A stretch of 64,000 nucleotides of DNA, from contig JAQGDQ010000125.1 in the NCBI GenBank assembly GCA_030141605.1, forward strand, positions 1-64,000. The letters are read 5' to 3'. The first letter of the stretch is position 1, and every line of letters starts with the position of its first letter. The translations under genes were made by a program, and so were the position numbers. The DNA comes from Tubiluchus corallicola (lineage: Eukaryota; Priapulida; Priapulimorpha; Priapulimorphida; Tubiluchidae). This document shows, one piece after another, positions 5,641 through 26,807 of this stretch. A model generated the notes under the pieces. That model did not search any database. It saw only the letters and a program-made list of their open reading frames with translations, and had not been told where the DNA came from.

Positions 5641-8179
5641 AATAGATTTTTTGGGGTTAATTGATTACAAAATAAATTGCAGTGTCCTAATTGCTTTGCG
5701 ATTCATACTTGAAGAATTGTATTCATAAATTTCGAGTGCCTTGAAGTGTAATGTCCGAATTAAGTAAATAGTACTAATTTTCATGAAACGTGGACCTATG
5801 GATAAAGATTATATGTCACAAACACAGATCCAGTCATTATCGGTTCAAAAAAATTGGTTTGATAACCAAGGTCCATTATAAATTTAAATAAAGATTTTTT
5901 TCTTCTTTGTTGTATGTAGGATAGAAAAGACATACTTTCTGGATATCCTATTATCAATAGCATGGTATTATATTGTTTGTAGTTACTATATAATATGGAA
6001 CTACTCTAGAACATCATGTTTAATCACCTTTTACCCGAGCTGTTTTGAGGGTATAGTCATCCTCGTAATCTTGCTCTAATAAGGACAAGTCAACGGTATT
6101 GATGTTTTACGTAATATGAATGTGCTTTGGTAAGGTTGTTCAAGAGATTACTTATGTTCAAAAAATTATTTATTTTCTTCTATAGCGTGTGAAATATTTG
6201 GATTGGGCATTAACTAATTCTTGTTTAAAGCATAAGTAGTTTCTTCACAGTTAAAAAATTTTTATTATCGTTCTACTAAACTGATAAACATAAAAAATTG
6301 CTTCTATGAGTATTGTTTGTCTAGTACGTGTGACATATTATTTTCTGTGAAGTACTATTAAATTGAGCTGATGTAATTATTGTGTTTTCCATGACATTTA
6401 TACATTGGAGAATTGTATGAAACTACAAATATAGTTTATGTGCAGTAATGAAATTTGTAGTTATAAAAATACATTATATTAATTTTACTAAGTAGGCACT
6501 GGCGTAATTATGTATCCTCAGACCTCACAATTTCGAATGGGCTCACAAAAGATGGGTCTCTGAGGATGAATGAAATAACCACATTGCATATCATTTTTTG
6601 TGCGCAAAACTCCTTATTCAAGACACATCTGCAAATTAGGAAGACAACGATTATAGTTAAATTCACAACTTATTTGATAGTTTTTTTTTGTATAAATGAA
6701 CTAGACCTGTTGTTATAGCAATAGCTCACAAAAACGCCACTCACTGTGTAGGATGAAACTGTTTGCTAAGGGAAACGGCAGAGATTTCACTATTGAAAAA
6801 ATAAATATTTAAGAAATCTTGCTGTGTTTATTTTTTCCCAGTTTGCTAATAAAATAACTACAATTTGAATATTGCTTGGAATGCGTTTCACAAATAACAA
6901 ATCGTTTGGAAATCTTTCAAGTAAAGACCACAAATAGCGCCAAATAAAGCTTTTCCAGATCTTGTGGTGGTAGCATATAACACTACAATAACTGGGAGCT
7001 TTTGAGTGCAATTATGTCACGACCTGAGGATTTATATATATATATATAATAATCTTTATTTGCCATTAAAAACATTGATAATCACTGATAAAAACTTTAT
7101 AGAGATAATCAATCAGTGTTAGTTAATAAAAACTTACACTGCTGAAGGCAAATGCGTCAGTGCAATCTAAACTACTGTGCAGTAATGACGAATAAAATCA
7201 AACATATTTACAACTATACACAAAAAAATATAAAAGAAAAACTATGATTTAATTAATATGGCCGTGGGTATATGAATTCGGAATTAGTGTGTATGTTGTC
7301 GTACTGGTGTGATGGTATTTCATATCTGGTTAATATTAGTGATTTTAATTTTGTTTTAAATGCTGATAGGGACTTGATTTGTTTAACCTGTAATGGTAGA
7401 GAATTCCAAAGTAAAATTGCTTGTTTGATTACAGAGTTCGTTCCATAGTGGGTATTTGTCCTAATTTGTTTTAGATTGCTTGTTCTGGAATTAACGATAG
7501 GATTTGGAAAAAAGGTAAATCTGTTATTCTGGAATTTTAAGTTGCAAATGACGATAATGCCCCAAAATAATTATAAGACCACTAGTTTTAACATAACAAG
7601 ATGTTATAATTGTCCCGTGCATCGTGCTGAGCTCTAACATTGATTAACACGAGTTTCCATGTAGCATGCTGTAATAAATTGTATGACTGCATTAAGAATG
7701 CATTACATTATTTTACTCATGTTAGCCCTTTTCTCTTTATGCCATTTTATTATGGAATTGCATTATTATAGCATTATATTTGTCTCTGAGGAAAATACTG
7801 TCATGATTTTTTAGCATGATGAGATTTGAAAGTAAGCAGTTTAGTGAAACACAAATTCGTCGTGATTGTACAAGTATCACGTCAGATCTTTAGTAGGTGT
7901 AAGAAATAAGTTTTTATAATGATTTATAGTGTTATGCAATTTGTCCCGACAAATGTTGAATATTATAGCAATTAAAAATCAACTGGATATGTGTTGGAAA
8001 TGATGGAGCCGTCTGCAATACTGCAATGAACTGACACCGAATGTCTTCACCGTTGTGTGGTGAGCTTTGTAGTCGTGTGGAATGGAGGTTATTAAGTTGC
8101 AAGCGTCGTCGGTGATCACGGAAATCGATGGTGTCTCATCGGTTTCTATGACTCCGTGTTTGTTTTTTTGTTTTTAATC
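5641..8179. other. Intergenic region between SARNP and KIF28
   Basis: Apart from the LINE fragment near 7.0-7.6 kb, this AT-rich stretch shows no conserved reading frame. The last 200 nt before the kinesin ATG (about 8000-8180) are less AT-rich and hold several CpGs. They are the likely promoter and 5' UTR, but no TATA box or other decisive element is visible. Confidence 0.6.
7029..7560 (-). mobile_element. Non-LTR retrotransposon (LINE) ORF2 3' end, 5'-truncated
   Basis: Read on the minus strand, this gives a nearly continuous frame with the typical end of CR1/Jockey-like ORF2 proteins: NTHYGTNSVIKQAI, then WNSLPLQVKQIKSLSAF and KTKLKS. A stop and an AT-rich 3' end follow, closing in a (TA)n tract at 7034-7049. 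No reverse transcriptase domain is present, so the copy is 5'-truncated. The clade is not resolved. Confidence 0.8.
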
Positions 8180-11100
8180 ATGGAAAAATCAGAAAATGTT
8201 AAGGTTGCGGTGAGAGTGCGACCATTTATATCCTTTTGTTTAATGTGCTGTGCTGCTGCACCAAAATATAGTTAAAACCTGTTCTCTTTTACATAATTTT
8301 CCCAATGATATACATAATAATTACAAATTTGACCACTTTTTGTGGCATAGTCGAATTCGTTTATGAATACGTGGCGGCTCGCATATAGGTACATTGGAAC
8401 TGCAGCAGTTCCTAGTTTTACTCAATATTATCGGTGATATTCAATATAATGAGTTTTTTCTTTAATTCTTCGTTTATACTTGTATGGAACAAGAGCACGT
8501 GAGGGTACACTGCTTCACAGTGGTGTGTTTGGCTGTTGTGCGCATGCGAATAGGACTTCCAATTTTCTGCAGTAGACATGCAAATGCTTCTATCTTTAAG
8601 TGTTAGTGCAGTAAATATGTTAACATCTGACCTGTTGCAGAGAGGACAGGTTGATTGAAGGAGATAAACTGAAATGATAAGTATCAGCATTTCTATGTTT
8701 AAAAATTTTGAGAATAGAAGGATGATGGTGATTGATTGAAAAAATATCGCTAACTTAAGGTCAGTAAACTTAAAAGATGCTGAAACTGTAGAAGGCTGCA
8801 TCTACATTTTGTGTTTAAAAGGTTTAAGTTGAGTTGTCTGAGCCTTTTAGGGCAAGAGAAATCCTAAAGGTCAACACGTGTTTCTACTAAATGCTAATTA
8901 GTTCTTATTGTGAGAATCTAGATATGATTGGCTTCATTAAGATGATGATAAACAAGTGATGTGTAAAATCATTAAAGCATTGTACAGTTAATTTTAACTG
9001 TAATGTGCAAGAAATAAGACCTAATAATTTATGGCACTTAATGACTTTAGTGGTACACTCACATCTCGGTTTGCCAGACCTCGCTTTTATAGATATTAGA
9101 AGAATCGGACAAAATCTAGGCCATTAAAAAGTCCGTTGTTTTGCAAGCTGACCTCTAGTTGAGGGGGGACACTTTGTTTACATCCAAACAGGTGTAACAA
9201 CATGTGAGTAACTTGTATGTCAGCATGTTTAGTGGTTTAACCAGTGTGTGTAAGTGATTTCGTGTCAGATATGGAGAGTTATTTGAGTCAAATGCCGACG
9301 ATTTTTATATACTTCAGTGGCCACTACTACACATTTTTGAGACAATTAGGCGATTTTTTATACATTACCGTGGCGGTTACTGTATTAGCGTAGTATCGAT
9401 AAATACGGACAATTGACAAATTCGTATTGACGTCTCCCCATTTTTGTTCGGCAATGATATGAGTGTAGCTTGCATTTTGCTCAATTCAACTTCAACTTCG
9501 ACTCTATCTTATCAATAGAAGAGGATGTAGAGGCTTTCCATTGGATGCCAATTTACTAGCATTCCAACTCATTGCTGCACAAACACAATCATTTAACAAG
9601 GTGTTACTTTTCATTTATGTCCACGTTTACACCCTACTTTACTTTGTTTTGTCACTTCAATATATTATTTTTATGAGTGTTTTTGCCATTAATGTGTTTA
9701 TCCTTAATAATACCTACAGTGATAGGGAAAAATTAAAAAATGCCACTTGTGTTTTAACCATGATAGACAAGACTACAATACTATATGATCCATCGAATGC
9801 AAAGCAAAAGCCAAGACATTATACATTTGATTGTTCATACTGGTCACATGATGGTTACAGGGAAAATTACAATGGATACTTGGAATCTTCAGCACCTTAT
9901 TATGTTGACCAGGTAAGTTGAGCTTCACAAAAAATTGCTACTAAATTATTAAATAAAATTAAATAATTGATTCTACTGGTTTTGCTGTTGGGTGTGTGAT
10001 GTTTCAAAAGTACCTGAAGAGTTTCTGCTGTTGTGAACTCAGAGTATAGATGTATTTGTTCACCAAAAATTTTGATATTTTCTTTCGCCATTCTGGCTAA
10101 ACTTTTCTTTTTGGTGAAAGGTTATATAAAGCTGCCGGGCCAAGTATGTGCAAAAGCTTATTGGTATTGCAGCTTTTCATTCCTTCTCAAAAGTACTGTG
10201 TTAGTAAGTATAAGCTGAAAGCATTTTTGATAATATTATAATTAGGTGTTCTGGGATTAGGACATGACTTATTGGGGTCAATTTATCTCAGTTTAAAATT
10301 TGTAAGCGATGCAGTGCAAATATTGCTTGTTTTGCAGAAAGTCTGCAGAGTTGTAGTCAGATTTAGCAAGTAATTATCATTATTTTTAGTATGTATTTTA
10401 GTAATTTCAAACTGTTAATCTATTGTTCTACAGTTTATTTTAGATTTTATTAAGGATATATTTATGAGTGACTGTGTGCGTTTTTGTTATTGTTTTTGAT
10501 ATAGCATTGTGTATTGGTTTCTGCAAAACTGTTTTTATTTCTTCTCGAGCTTGTATTTTCTTGTTAGCATTTTTGAAGATTTCAAATCCTGTTTATTATT
10601 TCTTATGATCGTCTTGATTGTTTTAGCAAAAACTTTATGATGACTTGGGAAAGAGCATGCTGAACAATGCTTGGAAAGGTTACAACTGTTCATTGTTTGC
10701 ATATGGACAAACTGGCAGTGGAAAGTCATATTGTATGATGGGCTTTGGTGCTAATAAAGGTGAAATGCTTAGCAGCTTTAAATGGACTAGTCTTGCATTG
10801 ATCAACATCTTGTAAAAGAACATTTTATGTTATCAGTCATAATTTCGTAATAGATTTTCAATTTATGTGATTAGCTGTGTATTTTTCGTACTTAGGCTAT
10901 GGGCATATTTTCAGCATTGTCAATACATTCTAATTTGTATTACAGGTATTATTCCTCTCTTGTGTGAAGATTTATTTAGAACAATTGAAGAAAGAAAGAA
11001 AAACCAACCATCAGACCAAGAATTCCAGGTATTTGATTATTGAGTAATATTCAGAGCGCATGCTGTAAATATTTCAATACACATTTCTTATTTTAAGTTT

Positions 11101-13016
11101 GTTTTACAAATCTGCAGTTAAAAAACTAAATTTTTCTAACTGTTTTAGTTAAATTACATAAATGTGACTAGCACGTTGTATAAAGTTTTTCTTTGGGAAA
11201 TTTTTGTGTCTTATGGAGGAGGAATGTACACAAATAATTGATTATCCTACAAATAGTATACTGTATTCTACACATGCTGAATGTCAACCGCTCACTTACC
11301 GGGGAAAAAAACTTGGTACAGAGCCAACATCATTGTCCCGATAAAAATAATCTGCTACCGCATGGCAGAAAACAGTCATTCCAGGTCAGCTCACTACTTT
11401 GGGCAATTCACTGGGAAGTCGGGTATACTGTGCATGCTTAGTCATTATTCTTATGGCACTGGTATGGGAACATTTTGAAAAAGTTCATTCAAACATTGCA
11501 GAATTTTCATTAGGTAAAAACAAATTAAATTATGAAAGATCAGCAAGATTTGTATTGCTTCATTTACGCATACAGCTCATTTTGAAGTTCATGTTGCAGT
11601 AATTAACATTACAGTTCAGTCTAGGCAAGAGCCTGGATGCAGGTAAATTTATTTTTTGAGCCCAGCAGAGGATGTGGCTCAACAGTTAGCATAATTCAGC
11701 CTAGGCATGTGAACAAATTTATTGTTCTGCCTTAATAACTAACATACGCAGTGATACAGTAAGTGATGCCTTGTATTTTTTGTTTATCTGTTTCCAGATG
11801 GCGTGGCCTACGGCAATAAGCATGGAAGTAAAATATTCCAGGTCACACATTCGATTATTCAAATAATGAGTTATTCAAAATTCCCACCCCTATTATGCAC
11901 AGCTTCACTTTGTAGGCTGTAGCATAAGCACAGTTTTACATTACGTTATGATAAAAATTTCCAAATCTGTTAACAGGCCATTTCTGTGAGCGCTGTAAGT
12001 GCACCAGCAAGAGACGTACTGATGGTGTGTGAATGACTCAGTAAGAATAGAAGCCATGTATTTGATAGATGCATTAAAAATGAATCATGAAATATCAAAT
12101 TTATCACATCTACAATTATCGAAATTCATCAGCCATAAGTTTTATTTGTGTATACATTCTAATAGTAAAATTTTATTACTTTACAAATTAATTTTTTATA
12201 ATCTTATAAGTTGCTTTGTTTTACTTAATATTTACAGGCAGTTTTATTGTAGTAAACAGCTTAAGAACTGTTCATAGAGTGTGTTCTGTGAAGAAAGCTT
12301 AATAGCGCATTTCAGATTTTCTGGACTTTAAATCCAGTGTAGTACTCAATAACACAGTATGCATATTATTTCAGGTTTCTTTCAGTATGATGGAAATTTA
12401 TAATGAACAAGTGAGAGATTTATTAAATTATTCAAGTCATGTAAATGGAGGCCTAAAAGTACGACAGCATCCAGCCAAAGGCTTTTATGGTAAATTTGGT
12501 TATGTAACATTGTATGTGTCTTTATAAGACAGCTTTTAAATAGCTTACACTGATGAAGTGCCATGTAATGATGTGTACTCTGTTTTATTTTGATTGAGAT
12601 GCTTCTATGTTAATGTGATTTAAAAAATAGGTCTATTACTATTATATAGATTCTCTGATATTGTAATATTTGATACGCGTAAATACTATAATGATGCCAT
12701 TTATTGCAAGATTTTTTGTGAACAATCCAAGATCGATAATGTTTTCCAGAAACCTATATTACAATACATTTTACAATTATTCATTTTTCATTTGCTACCT
12801 GTAGACCTGTATTATGAATTTAAGATTAAAAGTGTAAATTTTACCAGCTAACTGAAAGACTAGTCTTATGTTTGGTTAGTTAACACAAAAGAACAATTTT
12901 TTGTAGTTGAGTCTTTATCATCAAATCCAGTGTACAGTTATCAGGATGTGGAAGCTCGCATAATGGAAGGCACTCGGAACAGAACATTAGCTGCTACAAA
13001 CATGAATGCTACTAGC

Positions 13017-13087
<71 letters not shown>

Positions 13088-15963
13088 TGTAACATTTAAA
13101 TAATTTTTAGTGTCAAGAATTGGAGAATTCACAAGAAAAAAATCCGACAAAGAAATTAAAAAGACTTGAAATTTTCAGTACTTCGCTGTCCTCTCTCGCC
13201 AGTTTAAGAAGAGACACAGACAATAGTAAATTTTTAATGTAATGCTGGCTATTCAGCAATAGAAAAAAAACAGAAAAACACAGAAGGAAAAATACAATCG
13301 GTATGAAATAGTGTGAAGAAGTCTTCATAATATTGTGACTTGTGATGTGTTTCTTTTTATTAATGTAAATACAGTAATAAGTGGTATACATCATCTAATG
13401 ATGTTTTGCTATGTTAAGTGATTTTTTTGCTAAAATTACATGAAAGCCAACTTTAAACACTCTAAACACTGCATTACTGTTCATCCTTTTAGAACAAGAT
13501 GACAGCATTGAAATATGTTCTCAAGGAACTAAAAAGTTATTTAATACCTCGTCAAAGATTAAATTGTTTTTTGTTGGATAAGCTGCCAACAAAATTTTGT
13601 GAAGTTAAAGGATCCTGCTCACTTAAGCTATGGCAAGTACCAATATATCATTTTCGTAATTGGAATCACATTGTTTCAGTCGAGCACATACAATTGTTAC
13701 TGTTCAGTTTAATCAAAAGGGGAGAAATGAAAATGGTCAGTTGGTTACCAAGATGGCTAGTATCAATCTTGTGGATCTTGCTGGAAGGTAAGAGTTTATT
13801 CACATAAAAGATTGCGTTGTCTGGTAAACTTTTTCTTCTGCTGGCATGGATTGAAGATAGAGTTGTGTGACCTGACTTGACTTGCTGTTTAGTTGTAAAA
13901 GAATTAAAGAAAATAATTGTTTATTGCAGTTTTCTGCATTTTACCAGTTATTACCCGCTATTTCTAAAATATCTTACATTACATATAAATAAAGAATTAT
14001 CGTACGTCATTATAGTTATTGAGTTAAGCTTGACAATTTCCTAAAAATTAAGGAATATAGGTAGATAAATTTGATATAATATGTATATAAAATATGTCAT
14101 CTGTACACATTCTAATATAAGCAATTAACGAAATATTGCAGCTTGTATCTCCCCTCACGCATTTGCTATCTATACTGAGATGATTAAAACATTGACAAAA
14201 CATGAGTACAATTTATAAATACACTATTACTGAAGAAGCATTAAACAACAATTATGTGTTATATTGTCTGACTTTATGTGTTTAGTGAAAGATCTGATGT
14301 GTCTGGAACAAGTGGCGACAGATTAAAAGAAGGCTCAATGATAAATGTATCGCTTAGTTGTTTGGGCAATGTAATAAGATGCCTTGCTGAAAATAACAAG
14401 ATCAAGAAAACTTTAGTTGGTATGTAATGTAAACATGTGCATTCATTGTTCACTGCTGTACTATTAGGACGCTGCTGGTTTTTTTATGTTTTCCTACTTT
14501 TCGTGAATGACTTCTAATGCGAAAATATATTTAGTTTTTTATTGTTAACTATGTAATCACTGTTCTTCACCACATGTGAGGTATATGACAGTGATAGTCA
14601 CAGACCTGCTGGTTTTCACGGATTAGGCATGTTGTGCAACGTGTTTTTTAATCTTTCAGTTGTGTACAGGCATCAAAGTTTAGTTCTCTTTCATTTTGCT
14701 ACTTCACGCGCAACTTTGCAAAACCACCTGGTTTTGTTCACAATCAGCACTAACTACAACATAATCACTAGCACTATTGTCAGTAAGACAATAGTATTCA
14801 TGTGTGTCACAGCTTATATTATACTACAGTGTATTAAAATTGAAAACTAATTGCTTTTGGGTGCTACTGAGCTTTTTTCGTTGTCCAATTCACACATACA
14901 CTTACAAAGTTCAAAATGCTGTTAGGTTCTAACTTGGACAGACGCTTCTGTGTTTTATGATTAAATGACAACAAAATGCCTAGTACATTAGCATCGTGCA
15001 TTTCATATGCTAATACATATTACGCCGCCTTCTCATGTGTTGCTTTCCTTTAAATTCATTTTATTTTTAATTTTTTTATGTTCCTATTTTTATCTGTTTA
15101 CTACATGCAATTTTGTACGTTTAGTGCCATATCGAGATTCCATCCTCACGAAATTGCTGAAAAATGCCCTGGGAGGAAACAGTATTACAATTATGGTAAT
15201 CTTTTATATACTTTGACAATGTAGTATTTCATTAAAGACTGAACTGTAATTACACACGCTTATTGACATGATATTGATAAATAGGCCTAAATTTTCAATC
15301 TGAGGCTTTCATAATTACTAAAGTGTGGTTTTCACATTTTAACTTTAATGCTGTTGAAAAACCTAGCTTTCAGTGGAAAGCCAAATTGAGTTAAGTTTGC
15401 TGGAGTGTTTTTAAGCATAATAACAACACTTTCGGAGGAATGCCAAAATTTTTTCTCCACAATCGAGATGAATTGAATTGATAATTGTGTTACGAAGATT
15501 TTTGATTTTTCAAACTTCAGTAGGTTTGCTATATTGTTGCTGCGTGTATCCTTTTTTCTCTGAACATATCACTTTTTTGCATCTAAGGTTTTTTTATTTA
15601 TCTTGTATTTTTTCAGATAGCTGCTGTCAGTCCAGCTGACATCCATTACGAAGAAACATTATCCACATTGCGATTTGGTATAATGATTTAATGTATTTAT
15701 TTATGATTATAGCTAATTTAACTGAGTATTAAACATCCCTTTTGCGTACTTTTTAAAAATTAGAATTAAATGTGTATGCATGCTGCGCATTTATTTATGA
15801 CAAATTGTTTTTTGTTTAGCTAATAGGGCTAAGAATATCACCACAGTGGCCCTGATGAATGAAAGTCCAACAGAATTATTATTAAAGGAGCTCAAAGAAG
15901 AAAATCAGAAGCTTTTGCAAATGCTAAAAGCGGGAAAAGTGACACAAGGTTACACTGAAAAAG
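8180..15963 (+). CDS. KIF28: KIF28 motor-domain exons 1-11
   Basis: Exons: 8180-8227, 9718-9912, 10627-10759, 10946-11028, 12375-12489, 12907-13018, 13680-13787, 14286-14419, 15125-15195, 15617-15677 and 15820-15963. The P-loop GQTGSGKS is at residues 108-115. Switch I is NATSSRAH at 225-232, with Ala where many kinesins have Ser. Switch II is DLAGSE at 261-266. The end of the motor, LRFANRAKNI, is followed by the neck and the start of a coiled coil. All nucleotide-contact motifs are intact, so a functional ATPase is expected. Every exon junction keeps the frame. Intron 1 is unusual and is described separately. Confidence 0.92.
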
Positions 15964-18900
15964 GTCAGCAGCCTTTTTATTATTTTTACTGTTTTTGCTA
16001 TTTTCCTAGGCTATTGTTAGTTATTATTTGAAGAGTCGTTCATATTGTAAATAATAGAAAGAAGAAAATCTGGTTAAAAAAACCCAGGGGATCTCAAGGC
16101 TCACATGTAAGGTTCATTTCGTATTACAGATTGATAAGAAATGGTTAACTTTAAAATTTTTCAAACAATTATAATAATAGGTCAACCATTTTTGGGCAAC
16201 ATTTACAACTACTATGACAGCTGCTGTTCTAGCGTATTGCTGTGTAGGTATTTGTTTGCTTAAGTAAATAAACTCTAAATAGATTTTTGTGTCATATACA
16301 TTTGTTCTTTAGAGGTGGAAGAGATTAGACGGTCACTTGAGGAACAGATTAAACAGAACCAAGTAGAAATGGAACAAATGAATAAGTCATGGCAGCAGCT
16401 CTTACAGGAGAACCAACAAGAAAACATGGTAATATATTACAGTGGTGGAGCTAATGTACTGGTAACAGTGTAGGAATAAATCTACACTATAATTAACTTT
16501 GACAAGGAAAGGTGAACAGCATCACAACAGGCCTACCTGTGGTGGAAAACTAGGGATCATAGGACAAAACTCCACCAGGCGAAAGCCCACCGGAGAAAAC
16601 CCCACCATACAAGTTGAAAAAAGACAAAACCGACCAGCGAAAATCGGGTGTCAAAAAAGGGAATAGTTTTGCAACAAAGCTGCGTTGCAAAGAGTTTATT
16701 TCGAGCTAAAATAAAAATTGTGCTTTATTCAACTTGATAGAAACTACATGCAGAGTGATAAATTGATAATATCATGGGAGTGTTTGCAATTGGCTTGTAA
16801 CTCCCGCCTCTAAAGCAAAGTGTTTAGTGATACTGATCGGTTGTTTGTCACCTGAGCAGAGCGAGCCCATTGGACATTTTCTTGCTCTGAAGCTTTTTGT
16901 CTAATGTAGTTAATTACTGACTGAGCTACTAATTATGTACTTATGAAGAAAACTAATAAACACTATTGTCTGTCGGCAGAATAATTAAAACTTGCTTTTA
17001 ATGTTAGCGTTTAAAATGATTGATTTCACGTTTCTTCACAAACTCATGCCGACTCATTCGTGGTAACTGAAAAGTGACAAGACTAAGCAGTAGCTTTCAT
17101 TTGCTAATCACTATGAGCAGCCATTTCTTTACTAGTGTAATTTACTAGTCGAGAAATTTTTATGTAGAACCAGCCTCAGTATTCTCAAATATTTCCCAGT
17201 CACATTAATTTTATTATCCATACCCAGCACCACCCTCGGCCCATTCCAGTTCTTCAGAAATAAGAGGTATAAGTTTCGCAAAAAACGGCTGAAAAATGGC
17301 CATTTTTGGAGGTTTTTCGCCCCCCCTCTTCCTTCCTAGCCCAATTCGAAAAATAAACCATCAATGGCACGACACTAGATCGAGACCTTTCGTTTGATAT
17401 ATAGATCGCCGCAAATGGTGCCCTCGTCCGGGCTGTAGCCTCGAATCTTATATATATATAAATATATTAAGATACCAAGAATATTAATATAACAGATTTG
17501 CAAAATTTGTGTTAGTCTGAATACATTCCCTTCTGCAAATCGACAAAACAAAATTTAATTATTTTTTCTGAGAAATTACGTAGCTTTAATACTTAAATAT
17601 TCATTATGTTAATAATAGATAAGTTTTTAATTGCTTTAATAGTAATTAAAGTAAAATACCATTTCTTAAAATATTTTTGTATTTCTTCTTTTTATAGAAG
17701 AAGAGTTAAAGCAAAGTTAGTTAGCAATTAACGTGAAATGTAACTTAAAATTGTCTTAAGTAAACAGAACTATAACAAATTTAAATATGCGTTAACTTCA
17801 AAAACGTGTGTTTTATAAAATTAAAATTTGAGTGATCATGTTTGCATTTGTCCATCAGTTCTGAGCAGCTCTAAAAATTATTTTATTTTTTATTCGTTTT
17901 TTTAGAAAAAGTTAGAAGAAGAGCGACAGAATCAAGAAAAGAAGAAAGTTATGCCCCACTTATGGAATTTGAATGAGGATCCCATGCTCACAGGAATGCT
18001 CGTTCATTTCATTATTCCAGGAAAATTAATTATTGGAAGCAAAAACACAGTGTCTAAAGTCAACACAAATAACCATATTGTTTTGAAAGGATTGAGGTAT
18101 GACTGAAGTGAATATATATTCTTGAATTTCGTATTTAAATTTTTAGGTTTTTGACTTTGCTAATAACGTCCTGAAGCTTTCTGCCCTTTTTATAAGTAAT
18201 TTCGTTTTCATTTGGTTTAGTCATTACGTAACTCTCTTTGTGTAACTGTGTAATTTGTTCCACTGCGTTTTTTTTTGTTATGAATTCGTTTTTCGTTTCT
18301 TGTAGTATACTACCAGAACATGCTTACTTTACGAACAAAAACAATGTGATTGCAATGAAACCTGGACAGGCTGCAAGAGTATTAGTTAATGGTGATGAGG
18401 TAACTGATAGTGTCTTTCTAAGACACAACGATAGGTAAGTAATTATAGCATATCAAAGGTTTATGTTTATTTAAGCCTTGCCTGTGGGTTGTGGGTGCAA
18501 TGATGAGATGAGTCTTTATTTAGTTATATCATTTTGCCATAAAGCTGCCAGCACCTGCTCTCTTCTTTGTTTAAGGCAGGAGTGTGCAAATTATCTGACT
18601 TGCCGGGACACATTAAACTTTCCCGCAGTTTCTGCGGGCTACAGGCAGTTTGATCAAGGAGCCAAGTACAGAAAGGCCTAATAACGATTTTTTTGCATCC
18701 GACCTGCGTACATCATTACTACTACACTCAAGAAGCTATTTTAGAAGTTATTAAAATTTATATTACAAACCATATGTTTCTACTTTCAGGACAGATAGTG
18801 GTAATTTCATTACAATGCATATTAGTAATGTGTATCACACAGTCTGTGTAGTACAGTGTTATTAAGCTACAACCGTCTTGTAAGGGTTAATGGCATCCGA

Positions 18901-21900
18901 TCTAGTAGAAAAAACTACCCACACTATCTTTGGGATCGTGGCACCGACTTCAGCTGGATACACTCAATTAATCGCCCCGGGCCGCACTTTCATTAGGTTG
19001 ACAAATCTCTTCGCGGGCCGCAATTTGCACACCCCTGGTTTAAGGGTTTCTCCGTCTACAATAAGCAGGTGTCATTTCACGTTTCTTACACTACTTGCTT
19101 TGATTATAATCTTTATTACAACTCAGTGGGACATGTTTAACCCAATCCTGGTAGTGCCTTTGTATTGAGTTTCTCTAGTATTTCGTAGTGTGCAAAGTAA
19201 GCAAATGCTAAATATTTCTAATGGCAATGTATACCACGGCATGAAAAAACTTTGTGAATGCTATTGCGAAATTTTGATGAATGGGCCTGTATTAATAGGT
19301 GTTGTGCTGTGAATGTTATTTGAGTTTGCTACATTGTTAATAATAATGAAAAATGTAAAAGGCAAGTCTGTGGAATACATTATAAAACACTGATTAATAT
19401 TTTTTGCACAGTTTAAGACATTTATATAAACACATACATTTAATTCACTAATGTTACTAACATTTCAAATTTGTGATGTTTATTTTCTAAACAAAAATTT
19501 TTCCATCCTAATAAGGTCAAGCCTCCCACACAACGATTAGACGAAAATCCAGGGCCCATTTTCACAAAGCTGTCACTAACTTAACGATGTCATTATTATT
19601 AATAGCTGAGTGAATGTAATAACGGCGTCACCTACTTATTGACGGCTTTGTGAAACCGGGCCCAGGTCTATATATAGGCCAGCTAATATATTTAGTACAC
19701 AATTTTAGGCACCAAGTTAAACTTTTCGGACAGCATACCCACTTCCAAATTTACCAGTATTTCTGTCGATGGGTGAGAATTAAATAATGGCATGTAAACT
19801 GCAATCAGTTGTTAACTGTTTTTATAGAATTCTGTTTGGCAATAATCATCTGTATGTGTTGCATCATCCACAAGATCTTGCTAAGCAAATACAGGAGGGT
19901 AAAACAGTTGGAAAAGTAACATATGATAAAGCTCAGCAAGAAATAGCTCAGCATTTGGGACTAATTGGAAAAAATACATCACGGGGTATGTGATTCATTA
20001 TTTGAATGCGAAGGTAGCACTAACAATAACGAATATGATGTTAACATAATTTTGATTATGATTTTCATAATTTCGTGTTGACGAGGTTTTTTATTTTTCA
20101 GTTTGAGAAAATATTAGGTATTAAGTTTTTATCTAGAAATATTGTTTATGAGTTTCCAAATCTAAGAATGCATTCAAACTTTTTCAGCTGTTAGCTTATT
20201 TTGATTTACAATAACAAATTGCTTGGTTTATTATAGATGATTTTATATTGGAAGAGGAGCTTATTGAAATTTTGCCACATATTAACGAGGCAAATGCAAT
20301 TGCACAGGAACTAGGAAAAGATTTGCAATTCAAAATTTTGCTAGTTGCTCCACAAGCTCGAGGTTTACAAGCAGGAAAAACTGAGGTTCAACTTTTTTAT
20401 TTATTATGTTATTGGTTTCTCAAATGACACATTTGTTGGCTTAAATTGTTAAATTTGTTTGACAAATGAACATGTAAATTTCATCATCGCTCTAAAGTTG
20501 TTACATATTATACTTTTTAAATGCTTTTTTTAAATCACTTTAGTTTTTATCGTGCACTTACGACATAGCAATAGCTACATTTTGTTTCATTGAGACAAGA
20601 AAAAGTGTTACAGACTCTTACGTAAAACCCGGACTTGTGGCAACGCTGGGCTTTTAAATCGATGAGAATATGTCTTGCTGAAATTTTCAATAGTGACTTA
20701 ATACAATTTATAACCTTTGAAAGTTATTCCAACATTTAACGTATTTAGTTAGCATTGGAAAGTTTGATTATGCCCAGCATCTAACAAAACGTGGTCGTTC
20801 ATGTCTAGAAGAGCAAGTAGGCTGTTTTTTCTATCAGGTTTGAGTGAATGCTTATTGTGTGCACACATTTTGAATAATAATATTATTGTGACAACAATTT
20901 TCATTTAATTCCAATTTTGATTTTCATTTCACCGTTTGTTCTCTGCAGTTTACGCGCAAACATTATATCAAGTTTTATATATTATATAATATTATATCAA
21001 TATTGGACAAGTTTTTCAGTTCGTAACTTTGTTTAAATGTTGTATTTAAATCTATGCTTTGATTACTTTTTGATTATTCTGCTTTCAGTTGTGTGTTAAA
21101 ATGAAAACACTCGATGACAAATGTGAATGGTTGTGGAGTAAAAGCAAGTTCATGAACCGGATATATCTAATGCAAGAGTTGTATCACAAATATATGGATG
21201 GGTTGCTTGATTATGAGTCCCTAAATAAGGTAAAATATATAATATAACTGCTGAAATTAGTGAACTTGAATTAAGAACAGGAACTTCTAAGAAGTGTGTG
21301 ATATTATATCCAAGTTAAACTGTTCAGTTGGTTGTGATAATAATTATGACAGACTGAAGGAGTTAGTTAGTGATGAGATTGAATTAGGTTTTTTGTAAAC
21401 AGGCAGTCTAGTTGACTTTAGTCAGATCCATCAATCCATATTTCTTAATTTAGACTTGACTTTTTCCTGTTTCCCCTTATTTCATTCATCTGTTAAATAA
21501 TTATGGATTAATTCATTGTTAGTTTAGAGTTTTGAAATTGTAAAATTTGTTTGACAATGTGAAATTCATAAGTACTTTAAAGTTATTACATACTATGTTT
21601 TTTAAATGTTTTTTTAAATCTTATGTAAAAACTAAGCCTGTGACAAGACTGGTTTTTAAAATGACAAGAATGTGTCTTGCTAGAATTTTCAATAGTGACT
21701 TAATAGAATTTATAGCTATTGAAAATTTTCTCAAGGTCTAACACATTTAGTTAGCTGTGGTAAGTTTTGGTTATGCCTGGCATCTTACAAGAAGTGGAAG
21801 AGCATCTAGACATTACTTTTTCTAGACATGAGATCAGATTTGAGTGGCAAGAATAAGTCTGAATGAAAGTTTTGTATGCTTCTGTGCGATTAATCTGTCT

Positions 21901-24900
21901 TTTTATGGCTGCTAATTTTTGACTGTGCATCCTCTTCTCATTTTGTTGCAACTGATGCTTTGTGAAAGTTAGTGGAATGCATTTTTCCTGTATTGGCAGG
22001 AGAAGGATCCTTTTTGGGAACCAATGGACACCGAGGTGCCTGTAGGAACGGTACATGTGTATTTGCAGTCATTAACTTACCTCATTGAACTTGACGAAAC
22101 CCTTTCAATTACAGATTTTAAAGGTAACCAAGAAGCTTGGGTTGTAGTCAGATTCAGATAAACTCTTATTTAGCCTTAAGTTTACAATTATGAACCTTGC
22201 ACAACATTCATTCCATTTCATGTTTTAAATCCTATAAGAAAAAAGTTGTTGTAATTTTGCTTGAATTTAACTGCTAACTTTCTGTATTTTTACCATAAAG
22301 TGTTTACTCTAGCACATTATTATGGTATTATTTTAAACTTTATGCATGTTAGTTTGGTGGATTTTCTAATTTTTGAATAAACTTCCACTCCAGGAAAAAT
22401 TAAAAATGCTTATAAATGATCTCAATCTGATGTGCGAGTTTGAAATTTTGTTGTATTTGTATTTGAAAAAACAGCAAGCCATATTTCATTTCCTATAATT
22501 ACTCTATTTGTAAACCTGTTTATTTCATTACATGTTGCTATAAAAATACCTTTATATATTTAATAGCATATATTATATTTAGGTAATGAACAAGGCTCTG
22601 TACGCATTGTTCTGTATCCCTGTGATAGACACGGCCTTGATAAAAAAGGAGATTTTTTGGAGAATCCCCAAGACTTGATTGGAAAGGAACTGAATTTTAA
22701 GCTTGGGATAGTCCATGTTTCAGGCCTACCTACAAAATTATTTTCGGTAAGCGAACATTTAAGTACAAAAGTGTTGTCATGGTTTTGTATAGTGTGCACA
22801 AAGATGCACAAGGTTTGTGTGAAGCTAATTCATGTTAAATTCATCTTGCTTGCTATATTGTTTAGATAGACTGTAAATTTTATTGTTATTTTGCAATGTT
22901 ATGCCTAGAGATGAACATTTCGTCTTTTATCTTGACTTGGCACAAGCTACTTTCCACTTTGCAATGAAAGGGATAGAGAGTGAATGATAACTGAGTTTAA
23001 TGAGTTTATTGCACCAACCAAAAAATGACATAAAAATATGACAAATACGTAACATACCATTACTACAGCAAGATTACAGTTTTTCTAATTAAGAAACATT
23101 AATTTAGGTGCCTTCAACAGTTTAAAAAGACATTAAGTTAATATTAAAAAAGTATTAGTTTTTTAATGATCTATTTACAATATTTCATATTACAGGCACG
23201 AGTGTGGAATTTAAACATTAATACTGTCCTGTAATTTACTTGCATTATATACAAACTTGATTATAATTTTAAGAACATCCAAGTCATTCTGACCCATTAA
23301 AAATTTAAGTTTCTTTTGTTTAAGCATAACAGGAAAAGTAGTTATAAACTGTTTCACTTTTTTCCATAAGTTAGATCTCAAGTCGTCCTAATATATAGTT
23401 CACAATTTAAAGTACAATGCAATATAAAATGAAGTTCATGCTCTACTTTTGACCTTATGCAATTTAGACATACTGGTTTCTCCACTGGGATTTTTTAGGT
23501 TTGTGGTAACGACTTGTTTCATGTAGAATGTATGAGAACTTATTTTAAATTTAGTGAATTTTGTTAATAACTTTTTGTCAAATCCGGACAATACGTAGTT
23601 TTCCATTTTATATTGGGTTTTAAAGGTTCTGTAGGTTCTTAGCATATTTTGTCTTTCTTTTCTATCATTGTTAAAGAGCTCCATTTTCCACGAATTGATA
23701 TAATTTTTTTTTTAATTTTTTATATCAGTTAGGTTTTTTGTGTTAGTGAAAGTGCTTTGGTTCGCCATACGCGAGCAAAACTGCATTTAGTCAAAATATA
23801 TTTTTCGAATGTAACCTACTGCAAGTACGCAGTATTCTGATCGTGGTTGGATAATATAGCTGTTATGAGGTTGTTTAATTATATTTAACCAGTATCTAAG
23901 TATTATTTTAATAATTTTTGCATACAGAAGGAACTGTTCTAATTCAGCTCTGACCGCATTTTCACTAGATTTGCTGTTAACATCTTGTAAATTACGACAG
24001 AGTTTTAAATTGAGTTCCTCGCAATCTATCTTATTAAACTTATTTTGTATTGTATTTCCTCTGTTTTTAATTACATGAGCATCCAATACTTCTGCTGAGG
24101 AAAGCATTGTTGGTTCCACAGTTTGTTCGAAAATCTTAAGGGTTGTTATTAGAGTTATTTCAGTAGGAATATTTCTACGGATAATATAAAATGATTTTGA
24201 TCCTTTATTTTTTAGTCTGTTTGTACCCTGTTTAAATGAACCAGATGTGCAAAAGTCAATGCCTAAGTATTTATCTGTTTCCGCAATAGTTAGTGATTGT
24301 TCCTCGTAATAAAATTAAGATTCTTTATTTTTTATTTGTCTTATTAAATATTATTATTTTGGTTTTTTAATATTAGCAGTTAAGCCCCACTTATTACAAA
24401 ATCTTCTAACTTATTAATTCAGTACTGAAGCTCATCTTTAGTAGATGAGGTTTAGACCATATCATTAGCATAAAGCAAAATTGTTAACTTTAGTATTATA
24501 TAAACAAACTAGATTACTATGTGAGGGGTTCAAATAGCTTTCTGGTTTATCATTTACAAACACCAAAAACCGAGGTGGAACTTAATGGGCAACCTTGTTT
24601 GACACCTACGTAATAAGGTATTTTTTCTGTAAAGCCGCTATTTAATTTTACAGATATATATGAGTTTGAATGTTTTGAATGTGTGCTTTATAAATTTGTA
24701 ATGAAATATCCGCTTACAGCAGTTTACCATAGTTTAAAATAGAGTGCTAAACACCATACCGCATCGAAAGCTTTACTAAAGTCTACAAAACAGCAGCAAA
24801 GTTTTTTCTTGTTGCTTGTAAATTGCTAGTCCTTGACCCTTTTTTCAATCTTATTTGCCTTTTATGTAAACATTGTTTTGGAATAGGTATAAGTCTAGTC

Positions 24901-26807
24901 TATTTGACATTATTTTGGCAAAAAGCTTACTAAGACTATTGATTATTGCTACATCCTTATAATTATTTGGGTCTAAGTGCGCTACCGCTTTTTAGTGTGG
25001 GGATTATTATAGTTCTTATTCGAGTGAGTGGGATAGCATGAATTTGTAAGTATTAAGTTAAATAGTTTAATAAGTTAAATAAAAACATTTGATGTCATTA
25101 ATATATAATAATTGAATTTTATTTCAGTGTTTTTGCAAGTATAAGTTCTATTTAGATGAAAAAGCTGTGATAACATATGAAGCTCATAGAGTGGGAGATT
25201 ATTTTAACATTGGTCATGAACAGTTGTTTACATTCCATCCAGTTACTCAGCAGGTTTGTACTAAACAAAGCAGTGTTAGTTTAATATCAATATAAAATAA
25301 TAGTACCTTTTCTTGCAAAAGTGCAGTTATGTTTATTGGGTTCTTGTAAAATAAATGACTATGTAAATAAATGTACGTATTATGTGGCATGTGTATAATT
25401 TCTATTAGAATTGTATTATATTATAATCATATGTAACATACTCAGTGTGCAATTGTTTGTAATCATTAAAATAACAACTTTTTGCCATGAAATTCATTTG
25501 TGGTGTGACTTTTCAGTTTCTGTCATATCTGTCCAATACTGCACTTATAATAGAAGTCTGGGGCAGACAGGAAGAGTCCAGCTTGCGAAGTCAAACTTCA
25601 GCAGCTTCTTTGATGAGCACTGCAAGCCGAGGAAGTAGTGCACAGAGCATCAGTGGTGTCATAGCAGTAATATTAGTTTATTCTAATATATTTATTACAT
25701 TGTACTACTAAAAACGGAATAAATTTAAAATGTTGGGGTCTTGACTATACTTTATTTGCTTTGCTCTTGCATGACACACTGATGCAACACATACCATTCT
25801 CATGGCAAAAATTAATAAGGTCTGGTAAACCATTGATGCCACTAATGATGTTAAGTATTCATCTTCTTGTCAATGTATATTGCTGCATTATACTAATAGT
25901 ACACTGATAACAATACTGCTGCTGCCATCTACTGAAATTAGTATTCAATTAACAGAAACATGCAATACATTTAATGTCACTTATGCTAAATATTCACTTT
26001 ATAGGATGAAGCACGATGTAGTCAACTAGCACATCAACTAGCTATTTATAAGAAACGAGCTGAAAGGACTGAGGGAATGCTGGTATGTTGCCACTGCACT
26101 TTTAATTTATGACTTGGAGAGCAAAAATTATTTGTTTGTTCTACTGAATTGCATTTATGGGTTAACTTTGTTTTTGTTTTTTTAATTGCAGCTTGCTGTT
26201 AAAAATTTGGTCGAAAAAGCTGTGCAGCAGAATAAAAGCACAGTAGAGGTACGTTTGTTAACATGAACTACTTTTTATGAAAACAAAAAAATGTTTTTAT
26301 TGTAATTGCAGTTAATGTGAGCGTTGTCTTAGCTAACGTAATTTATTAATATTTGTGCAGAGTTTTATGAAACTACTATTAAGCTACTGTGTATCAAGCA
26401 AAATAAACTATAAATGTTGTGCTTTGGTAATAGTATAGTCCTGCTGTAAAGCCTGTTATTCTACGAGTATTCTGCAGGAAAAAAAGAGTTTCTGACTTTT
26501 TGTATGTATTGTGTGATAATTTCTCTTTTTGTTATGTTTAACTTTGGTATGTCGTCCAAAATTGTGGTGCATTTCATTTTGCAAAGAGCTTTGTCAGTTT
26601 ATTCATTCCGACAACAAGATGTTCATTAGTCAGTTTGGCATTTAAGCTGTAATAGACCAGCTTTTTCTCAGAGATTTAATTTTTATGTGATAGGTTGATC
26701 AATTGCTATTAATAGTAAACAGTGAAGCAAGCAGTGACAAGGACAGCAAGATCAGAGACACACACCAGATGAACAATGTACAATCTGAAGCTTGTCTTTT
26801 GCAGTAA
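8180..26807 (+). CDS. KIF28: Kinesin-3 family motor KIF28 / KLP-6
   Basis: This is a complete kinesin-3 gene of 24 coding exons. Summed exon lengths are 2901 nt, giving 966 residues plus a TAA at 26805-26807, close to the length expected for KIF28/KLP-6 proteins. The domain order is N-terminal motor (about 1-358), short coiled coil, FHA domain (about 470-560), kinesin-3 central region and short tail. The marker [16 protein letters not shown] just before the FHA domain is typical of kinesin-3. The tail pattern ([18 protein letters not shown], then a stretch matching EWLW-type KIF28 sequence) points to KIF28/KLP-6 and not KIF1, KIF13 or KIF16B; there is no PH or PX domain. In C. elegans KLP-6 acts in ciliated sensory neurons, and a mitochondrial role was reported for a mammalian homologue. 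The start ATG at 8180 has A at -3 and G at +4 and opens with the standard [10 protein letters not shown] strand. Confidence 0.93.
8228..9717 (+). other. Putative U12-type AT-AC intron in KIF28
   Basis: After CCA TTT at 8222-8227 the sequence continues ATATCCTTTT, which matches the U12 AT-AC 5' splice-site consensus ATATCCTT. No usable GT donor keeps the motor frame here. Near the other end lies TCCTTAAT at 9701-9708, matching the U12 branch-point consensus TTCCTTAAC. The intron would end in TAC at 9715-9717, about 10 nt after the branch A. Joining gives RPF-SDREK, the expected kinesin sequence (RPFNxREK). The alternative AG at 9718-9719 would put a stop in frame. Confidence 0.85.
13019..13084 (+). 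repeat. (AT)n microsatellite touching a splice donor
   Basis: The KIF28 exon 12907-13018 ends in AGCAG and the donor GT at 13019 is itself the first unit of about 33 AT repeats. The usual purine-rich GTAAGT donor context is therefore replaced by GTATAT. Confidence 0.93.
15820..18096 (+). CDS. KIF28: KIF28 neck and coiled-coil exons 11-13
   Basis: Exons 15820-15963, 16313-16428 and the first part of 17906-18096 encode a Glu/Gln/Lys-rich helical segment, about residues 365-455. It includes [17 protein letters not shown] and [16 protein letters not shown], with heptad-like hydrophobic spacing. This is probably the short dimerising or autoinhibitory coiled coil seen after the motor in kinesin-3 proteins. 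The function is inferred from position and composition. Confidence 0.85.
16561..16606. repeat. Short tandem repeat with a period of about 15 bp
   Basis: Three units follow one another: aggacaaaactccacc, aggcgaaagcccacc and ggagaaaaccccacc. A weaker relative lies at 16621-16640. They lie in the KIF28 intron 16429-17905, which otherwise shows no recognisable feature except a (TA)-rich patch near 17451. Confidence 0.7.
17906..19985 (+). CDS. KIF28: KIF28 FHA-domain exons 13-15
   Basis: Exons 17906-18096, 18306-18434 and 19828-19985 encode [18 protein letters not shown], then IIGSK and [10 protein letters not shown]. The block continues with [10 protein letters not shown], then [20 protein letters not shown]. 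These fit the beta strands of the kinesin-3 FHA domain (family G-x-x and S-x-x-H motifs, R-I-x-x-G-x-x-H-x-F). Here GSK and PEHAYF take those places, and [12 protein letters not shown] matches the RI-FG-NH segment. Frame is kept across all junctions. Confidence 0.88.
18569..19045. mobile_element. hAT-type non-autonomous transposon (MITE) with 8-bp target duplication
   Basis: The element at 18577-19037 (461 bp) starts CAGGAGTGTGCAAATT and ends, inverted, in CAGGGGTGTGCAAATT, a terminal match of 15/16. It is bounded by identical 8-bp direct repeats GTTTAAGG at 18569-18576 and 19038-19045. Eight-base duplications and CAG..GTG ends are hallmarks of the hAT superfamily. No transposase is encoded. 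It lies in the KIF28 intron 18435-19827. Confidence 0.9.
19552..19663. mobile_element. Short MITE with GGGCCC-ended inverted repeats
   Basis: The left end GGGCCCATTTTCACAAAGC and the right end (inverted) GGGCCCGGTTTCACAAAGC form 24-bp arms with 3 mismatches around a 64-bp core. The element is 112 bp and lies in the same KIF28 intron as the hAT MITE. The superfamily is not determined. Confidence 0.75.
20237..25666 (+). CDS. KIF28: KIF28 central region exons 16-21
   Basis: Exons: 20237-20385, 21089-21229, 22000-22123, 22583-22746, 25128-25253 and 25517-25666. They encode the segment after the FHA domain, including [40 protein letters not shown] and [31 protein letters not shown] follows. The FW-P and G-VYL motifs match the region that in KIF1-type kinesins follows the FHA domain (KIF1B/DUF3694-like). 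Later sequence includes [15 protein letters not shown], then [16 protein letters not shown], and a Ser-rich stretch. A cargo or adaptor role is assumed from the family only. Intron 22747-25127 carries an antisense LINE. Confidence 0.88.
20448..21800. repeat. Diverged direct repeat pair flanking a KIF28 exon
   Basis: Segments at about 20448-20800 and 21538-21800 share an ordered series of blocks. These include AAATTTGTTTGACAA, TTTAAATG plus a T-run, TCTTGCT followed by AATTTTCAATAGTGACTTAATA, then ATTTAGTTAGC and TTATGCC..GCATCT. They are about 1.08 kb apart, in the introns on either side of exon 21089-21229. They may be two copies of an interspersed repeat or a decayed segmental duplication. 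The exon itself is not duplicated. Confidence 0.7.
22990..25030 (-). mobile_element. Degenerate LINE with reverse transcriptase, antisense in a KIF28 intron
   Basis: On the minus strand, broken frames spell reverse transcriptase landmarks: [14 protein letters not shown] near 24.9 kb, [12 protein letters not shown] near 24.78 kb, and GVKQGCPLS near 24.6 kb. The catalytic box reads LLYANDMV near 24.47 kb. The C-terminal finger [18 protein letters not shown] lies near 23.45 kb. Stops and frameshifts interrupt the frame and the YADD box reads YAND, so this copy is dead. It probably belongs to the Jockey/CR1/L2-like group; the clade is uncertain. Confidence 0.87.
26005..26807 (+). CDS. KIF28: KIF28 C-terminal exons 22-24
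   Basis: Exons 26005-26082, 26192-26248 and 26694-26807 are all phase 0 at both ends. The first two encode a helical segment ([21 protein letters not shown], then [13 protein letters not shown]). The last gives a 37-residue polar tail ending EACLLQ and a TAA stop at 26805-26807. The last exon is the least conserved and is supported by its tract-AG acceptor at 26692-26693 and an open frame to the stop. No PH domain follows, as expected for KIF28. Confidence 0.78.

Follow-up and report, generated by a model that had tools for sequence, protein, structure and literature searches.

A probable ancestral U12-type AT-AC intron at the start of the motor domain of a KIF28/KLP-6-like kinesin-3 gene, with a counterpart in a paralogue of the same genome

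The stretch of DNA analysed here, hereafter called the window, is 64 kb long (64,000 nt) and carries on its plus strand a kinesin gene, for which we built a model of 21 exons with 20 introns, 19 of them GT-AG and one AT-AC (Table 1). The best solved relative of the encoded protein is PDB 7wrg, with which query residues 2-867 are colinear (E 1.5e-258), and KIF1A comes next (1.1e-106). The 7WRG structure is that of full-length C. elegans KLP-6 (PMC9314371). With KLP-6 as the top match and with a motor, an FHA domain and a KIF1B region all present, the gene is most probably of the KIF28/KLP-6 type of kinesin-3, as an earlier sequence-only reading of the locus had held. Exon ends in this model, as well as in that of the paralogue described below, were picked by us with homology in view, and the gene model is provisional at its 3' end, where exon 21 was closed by a guess. 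Exon 1 consists of 16 codons ending in VRVRPF, its last nucleotides are CCATTT, and its probable start codon at 8180 was placed by the alignment with KLP-6.

Several other features lie in or near the gene. Upstream of the kinesin start codon there is a 31-codon open reading frame (8082-8177, MEVIKLQ...FFCF), which ends 2 nt short of that codon. A TA-repeat (13019-13084) starts where intron 6 has its donor (GTATATATAT), and a 175-codon open frame on the minus strand of intron 19 (23790-24314) looks by eye like a putative remnant of a retrotransposon reverse transcriptase. Elsewhere, a CT-rich simple repeat is found close to the window start (943-1161), and open frames on the minus strand at about 33000-61000 resemble by eye a putative diacylglycerol kinase gene with C1 domains.

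Table 1. Features of the kinesin gene in the window and of the start of its paralogue on contig C166 (contig coordinates for the latter)
Feature	Position	Strand	Basis or remark
Coding exon 1, kinesin motor start	8180..8227	+	Translation; gap-free alignment with KLP-6 (PDB 7wrg) from residue 2
Probable U12-type AT-AC intron	8228..9717	+	1490 nt, phase 0; sequence and paralogous C166 intron
Candidate 5' splice site ATATCCTTTT	8228..8237	+	Possible base pairing to U6atac and U11
Candidate branch-site element TCCTTAAT	9701..9708	+	Possible base pairing to U12, branch A bulged
3' terminal AC	9716..9717	+	Sequence
Coding exon 2, ends ...YYVDQ	9718..9912	+	Translation and KLP-6 alignment
Remaining exons (3-21): motor, FHA, KIF1B-type region and tail	10627..25650	+	Gene model, Pfam, KLP-6 colinearity
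C166 exon 1 (15 residues)	99236-99280		Followed by donor ATATCCTTTT
C166 AT-AC intron, 722 nt	99281-100002		3' end TTCCTTAACATTTTCCTAC, then NSREK

Introns of the rare U12-type AT-AC class are characterized by a donor of the consensus ATATCCTT and by a branch element of the consensus TCCTTRAY, which is located about 10-13 nt before the 3' end. Directly at the end of exon 1 there is a donor of this kind, ATATCCTTTT, and toward the other end of the intron the element TCCTTAAT corresponds to the branch consensus, its presumed branch A being 10 nt from the intron end. This element ends in T and has no T in front of it, and is hence a weaker match than the element TTCCTTAAC of the paralogue. The 3' end of the intron reads TCCTTAATAATACCTAC, and its terminal AC joins the two exons in frame, since exon 2 opens with AGTGATAGGGAAAAA, encoding SDREK, and continues exon 1 in phase 0. 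Across this junction the joined protein fits KLP-6 residue by residue over 13 residues with no gap. The sequence-only reading had proposed AT-AC termini with a U12-type donor and branch element, and an unbroken frame from RPF to SDREK; the former proved correct to the base and the latter is borne out by the alignment. In none of the 19 GT-AG introns of the same gene model do the final 45 nt contain CCTTRA.

Exons 1-2 were searched against the genome to which the window belongs (343.5 Mb in 2344 contigs), and the loci of the 10 matches obtained were then read. A second KIF28/KLP-6-like gene was found in this way on contig C166, and in its own AT-AC intron the branch A of TTCCTTAAC is 11 nt from the end, which closes with CTAC. 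The AT-AC introns of the two genes occupy an identical codon, alignment column and phase. The sequence-only reading had suggested a comparison of this intron position in KIF28 and other kinesin-3 genes, and within this one genome the position is repeated in a homologous gene. As for the rest of the motor, all nine introns modelled in C166 fall at intron positions of the window gene, whose motor has 10, under exon ends that were not chosen blind. The two motors share 58% identity (224 of 385), while C166 and KLP-6 share 63% (241 of 385) and the window gene and KLP-6 58% (224 of 384). A blastn comparison of the window intron (1490 nt) with the C166 intron (722 nt) gave no match at E <= 1. Given that both donors read ATATCCTTTT, this indicates that the donor was held and the remaining intron diverged.

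By themselves, the donor and branch motifs are unremarkable, as they occur in the window at chance density: ATATCCTT has one plus-strand and two minus-strand occurrences (expected about 1.2-1.3 per strand), and TCCTTRAY has four and eight, respectively (expected about 2.9-4.6 per strand). They become meaningful because they are placed at exon ends, or at the proper distance from them, that homology defines independently, and because the same arrangement is found in the paralogue. According to a rough estimate of our own, which is no program output, multiplying the two motif densities for a single fixed boundary gives about 1e-8, a figure to be raised 20-fold to cover every intron of the gene. 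The donor-like pattern [AG]TATCC[TA] has 25 sites on both strands of the window, one of which is the intron's own, and none of the five checked among the other 24 (56508 and 10459 on the minus strand; 15546, 6512 and 4658 on the plus strand) stands at a recognisable exon end. Moreover, a search of the 343.5 Mb genome for VRVRPF followed by ATATCC, which is blind to variants of either half, gave exactly two matches, both being the KIF28-like genes, and the reversed control gave none.

In respect of the machinery, the genome search found matches to all four minor-spliceosome RNAs above the Rfam cut-offs, namely U12 (105.9 bits), U11 (101.7 bits), U6atac (112.4 bits, together with a second copy at 74) and U4atac (86.0 bits), so that the absence of such RNAs, which the sequence-only reading had named as an objection to itself, does not arise. 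None of the 14 control genomes produced a match, but the ones identified by name are prokaryotes, so that the control says little. An Rfam scan of the 64 kb window at gathering cut-offs gave no match. Contig C2008 carries five collinear matches to the CCDC84/CENATAC family. Four of them exceed the cut-off, and one of these four (25.4 bits against a cut-off of 25.3) has a stop inside the matched stretch. CENATAC is reported to promote the splicing of AT-type minor introns, and its depletion to affect 92% of A-type introns, in the consulted part of PMC8280824.

The donor stretch UCCUUUU can form seven consecutive pairs with the U6atac of this genome and likewise with the 5' end of its U11, and U12 can form seven pairs with the branch element of the window and eight with that of C166, the branch A being bulged and G-U being allowed throughout; these pairing runs are short, have no shuffled control and partly restate the consensus. 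The pairing is also weakly selective, for six consecutive pairs, in a shifted position, are still possible with the second U6atac-like copy, altered as it is. Near this second copy (74 bits; locus L004, G000 C1024:835508-835631, minus strand) a KIF13-like kinesin gene has its start codon, at a distance of about 390 bp; the copy points away from that gene and has AAAGCAGAG in place of AAAGGAGAG in its 5' splice-site pairing box, an alteration by which it may be a pseudogene or a variant.

The boundary between exons 1 and 2 could also be drawn in another way, with an overlapping U2-type GT-AG intron at 8245-9719 in use, by which ISFCLI would replace S after VRVRPF in the protein. When the GTs in 8180-8260 are combined with the AGs in 9601-9760, the frame is kept by this pair and by one other, 8245/9677, which makes a longer insertion, whereas exon 1 ending at 8227 and joined through the AG at 9718-9719 runs into an immediate stop. 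The pair 8245/9719 does preserve the frame to DREK, and its acceptor scores 2.9 bits, which falls within the span (-0.0 to 10.5) covered by the 27 modelled acceptors, although 25 of these score higher. Its donor, AAT/GTGCTG, fares worse: with a matrix made from the 27 GT donors of the window and C166 genes it scores -5.5 bits, against leave-one-out scores of 2.4 to 11.4 for those donors themselves. The net insertion of five residues would find no counterpart in KLP-6, KIF1A, the KIF16-like protein or the paralogue. In C166, reading through beyond the donor meets a stop after three residues, and each of the four frame-keeping GT-AG pairs in the searched ranges swaps part of the first motor strand for more than 20 residues. 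We consider the use of such a GT-AG intron very improbable.

It is slighter still in probability that the AT-AC intron is real and is excised by the major spliceosome. The terminal dinucleotides by themselves leave the class undecided, and 85 major AT-AC introns or related subtypes are mentioned in PMC8280824; the donor in its extended form, ATATCCTTTT, and the branch element close to the intron end are nevertheless of U12-type and common to both paralogues, and the genome carries the minor snRNAs and the CENATAC family. Least credible of all is that exon 1 is unused, with transcription beginning within the intron and translation at the ATG at 9674. There is an open frame upstream of exon 2 (9469-9918) which would accommodate such a start, but the resulting protein would lose 10 residues that align with KLP-6 and recur in the paralogue, and exon 1 would be left as an unexplained conserved coding remnant adjoining a U12-type donor.

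With a probability of about 0.95, we therefore read the intron as ancestral and of the U12-type AT-AC class, in a kinesin-3 gene of KIF28/KLP-6-like type. It is a well-conserved representative of a known class, nothing new in kind, and on the evidence of the paralogue it is most likely older than the duplication that separated the window gene from C166. That the window gene depends on the minor spliceosome is, from its splice signals, a strong inference. In minor splicing, the order of action is U11, U12 and then U6atac. For the present intron, the donor ATATCCTTTT and the branch element TCCTTAAT would be recognised jointly by U11/U12, U6atac would displace U11 at the donor, and the intron would be excised with codon 16 (F) joined to codon 17 (S) in phase 0; CENATAC would probably be required, the intron being A-type. 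The splicing event, the branch point, the use of CENATAC and any regulatory effect are in this sense predictions from the DNA. If the intron is retained, the message reaches a stop after 15 intron-encoded residues, upstream of the ATP-binding part of the motor, so that a full-length motor would need working minor splicing. It is also plausible that gene finders restricted to GT-AG introns would miss exon 1 and with it the first strand of the motor domain.

The kinesin motor family has 130 matches across many contigs in a genome profile search, of which the loci read were those showing a VRVRP-like motif. In the first exon of a KIF13-like gene (L004) a candidate GT donor is located 10 nt further on, and in two unc-104-like first exons (L041 and L043) and a KIF16-like gene (L007) the position is uninterrupted by an intron, these subfamily names being our own reading and not tree-based. 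The AT-AC intron is consequently present in both KIF28-like genes and in none of the four other kinesin-3-like genes examined; the genome may contain additional kinesin-3 genes. Exon 2 also gave two weak matches in the genome, L040 (C2061) and L042 (C760), which looked like chance and were rejected. The KIF16-like gene (G000 C530:334657-335712) has its entire motor domain in a single open frame of 1002 codons, and kinesin motors on C349, C1556 and C2263 are each contained in one open frame.

The phase of the intron deserves attention. Phase 0 accounts on average for about 22% of minor introns (PMC10639083) and is under-represented among them (PMC10639083, PMC7367187), which makes the window intron mildly atypical. 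Phase-0 minor introns have been proposed to be converted preferentially to major introns (PMC7367187). As far as the published surveys were consulted, roughly one human minor intron in four is AT-AC, and AT-AC introns are proposed to be largely unaffected by this conversion; a phase-0 AT-AC intron retained in two copies fits with such an exemption. In an unrooted tree of five motors, which with so few sequences and no outside root cannot establish a clade, KIF1A and the KIF16-like protein are split from the other three with a support of 1.000, and the window gene is placed with KLP-6 against C166 with a support of only 0.764. Taken with the motor identities, the tree suggests, without proving, that the duplication is old and its intron with it.

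A broader reading, which we advance tentatively and at somewhat less than even odds, is that the phase-0 AT-AC intron after VRVRPF may be an ancient and fixed mark of the KIF28/KLP-6 clade, predating the split of the two copies and kept because its A-type donor resists conversion to the major type. That it predates the split is suggested by the two copies being about as far apart (58%) as they are from the nematode KLP-6 (58-63%), and the weakly supported tree even brings the window copy closer to KLP-6. Human KIF28P is classed as a pseudogene and KLP-6 acts in male cilia, as stated in the consulted part of PMC12646758. If the clade-mark reading is true, a motor of ciliary type would be tied to minor splicing across animals. 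Should the intron be present in other animals, a kinesin subfamily would join the list of minor-intron gene families, and the KLP-6-type motor, ciliary in C. elegans, would be linked to minor splicing. KIF28 may already be listed in minor-intron databases; the words "kinesin" and "KIF" do not occur in the main text of PMC6865273. The two genes provide a clean instance, present in duplicate, of an AT-AC minor intron in phase 0.

Compared with known systems, the gene shares with KLP-6 of C. elegans a motor, an FHA domain and a tail that are colinear over query residues 2-867. The window intron shares with AT-AC U12-type introns in general the ATATCCTT donor, TCCTTRAY at 10-11 nt before the terminal AC, the situation of a lone minor intron among GT-AG introns and the minor snRNAs in the genome, and differs from them by its phase 0 alone. 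Minor introns are known to be kept after gene-family duplication in ion channels, MAPK, matrilins and others (PMC6865273, as far as consulted), and the present case is likewise one of two paralogues that retain the intron at one position.
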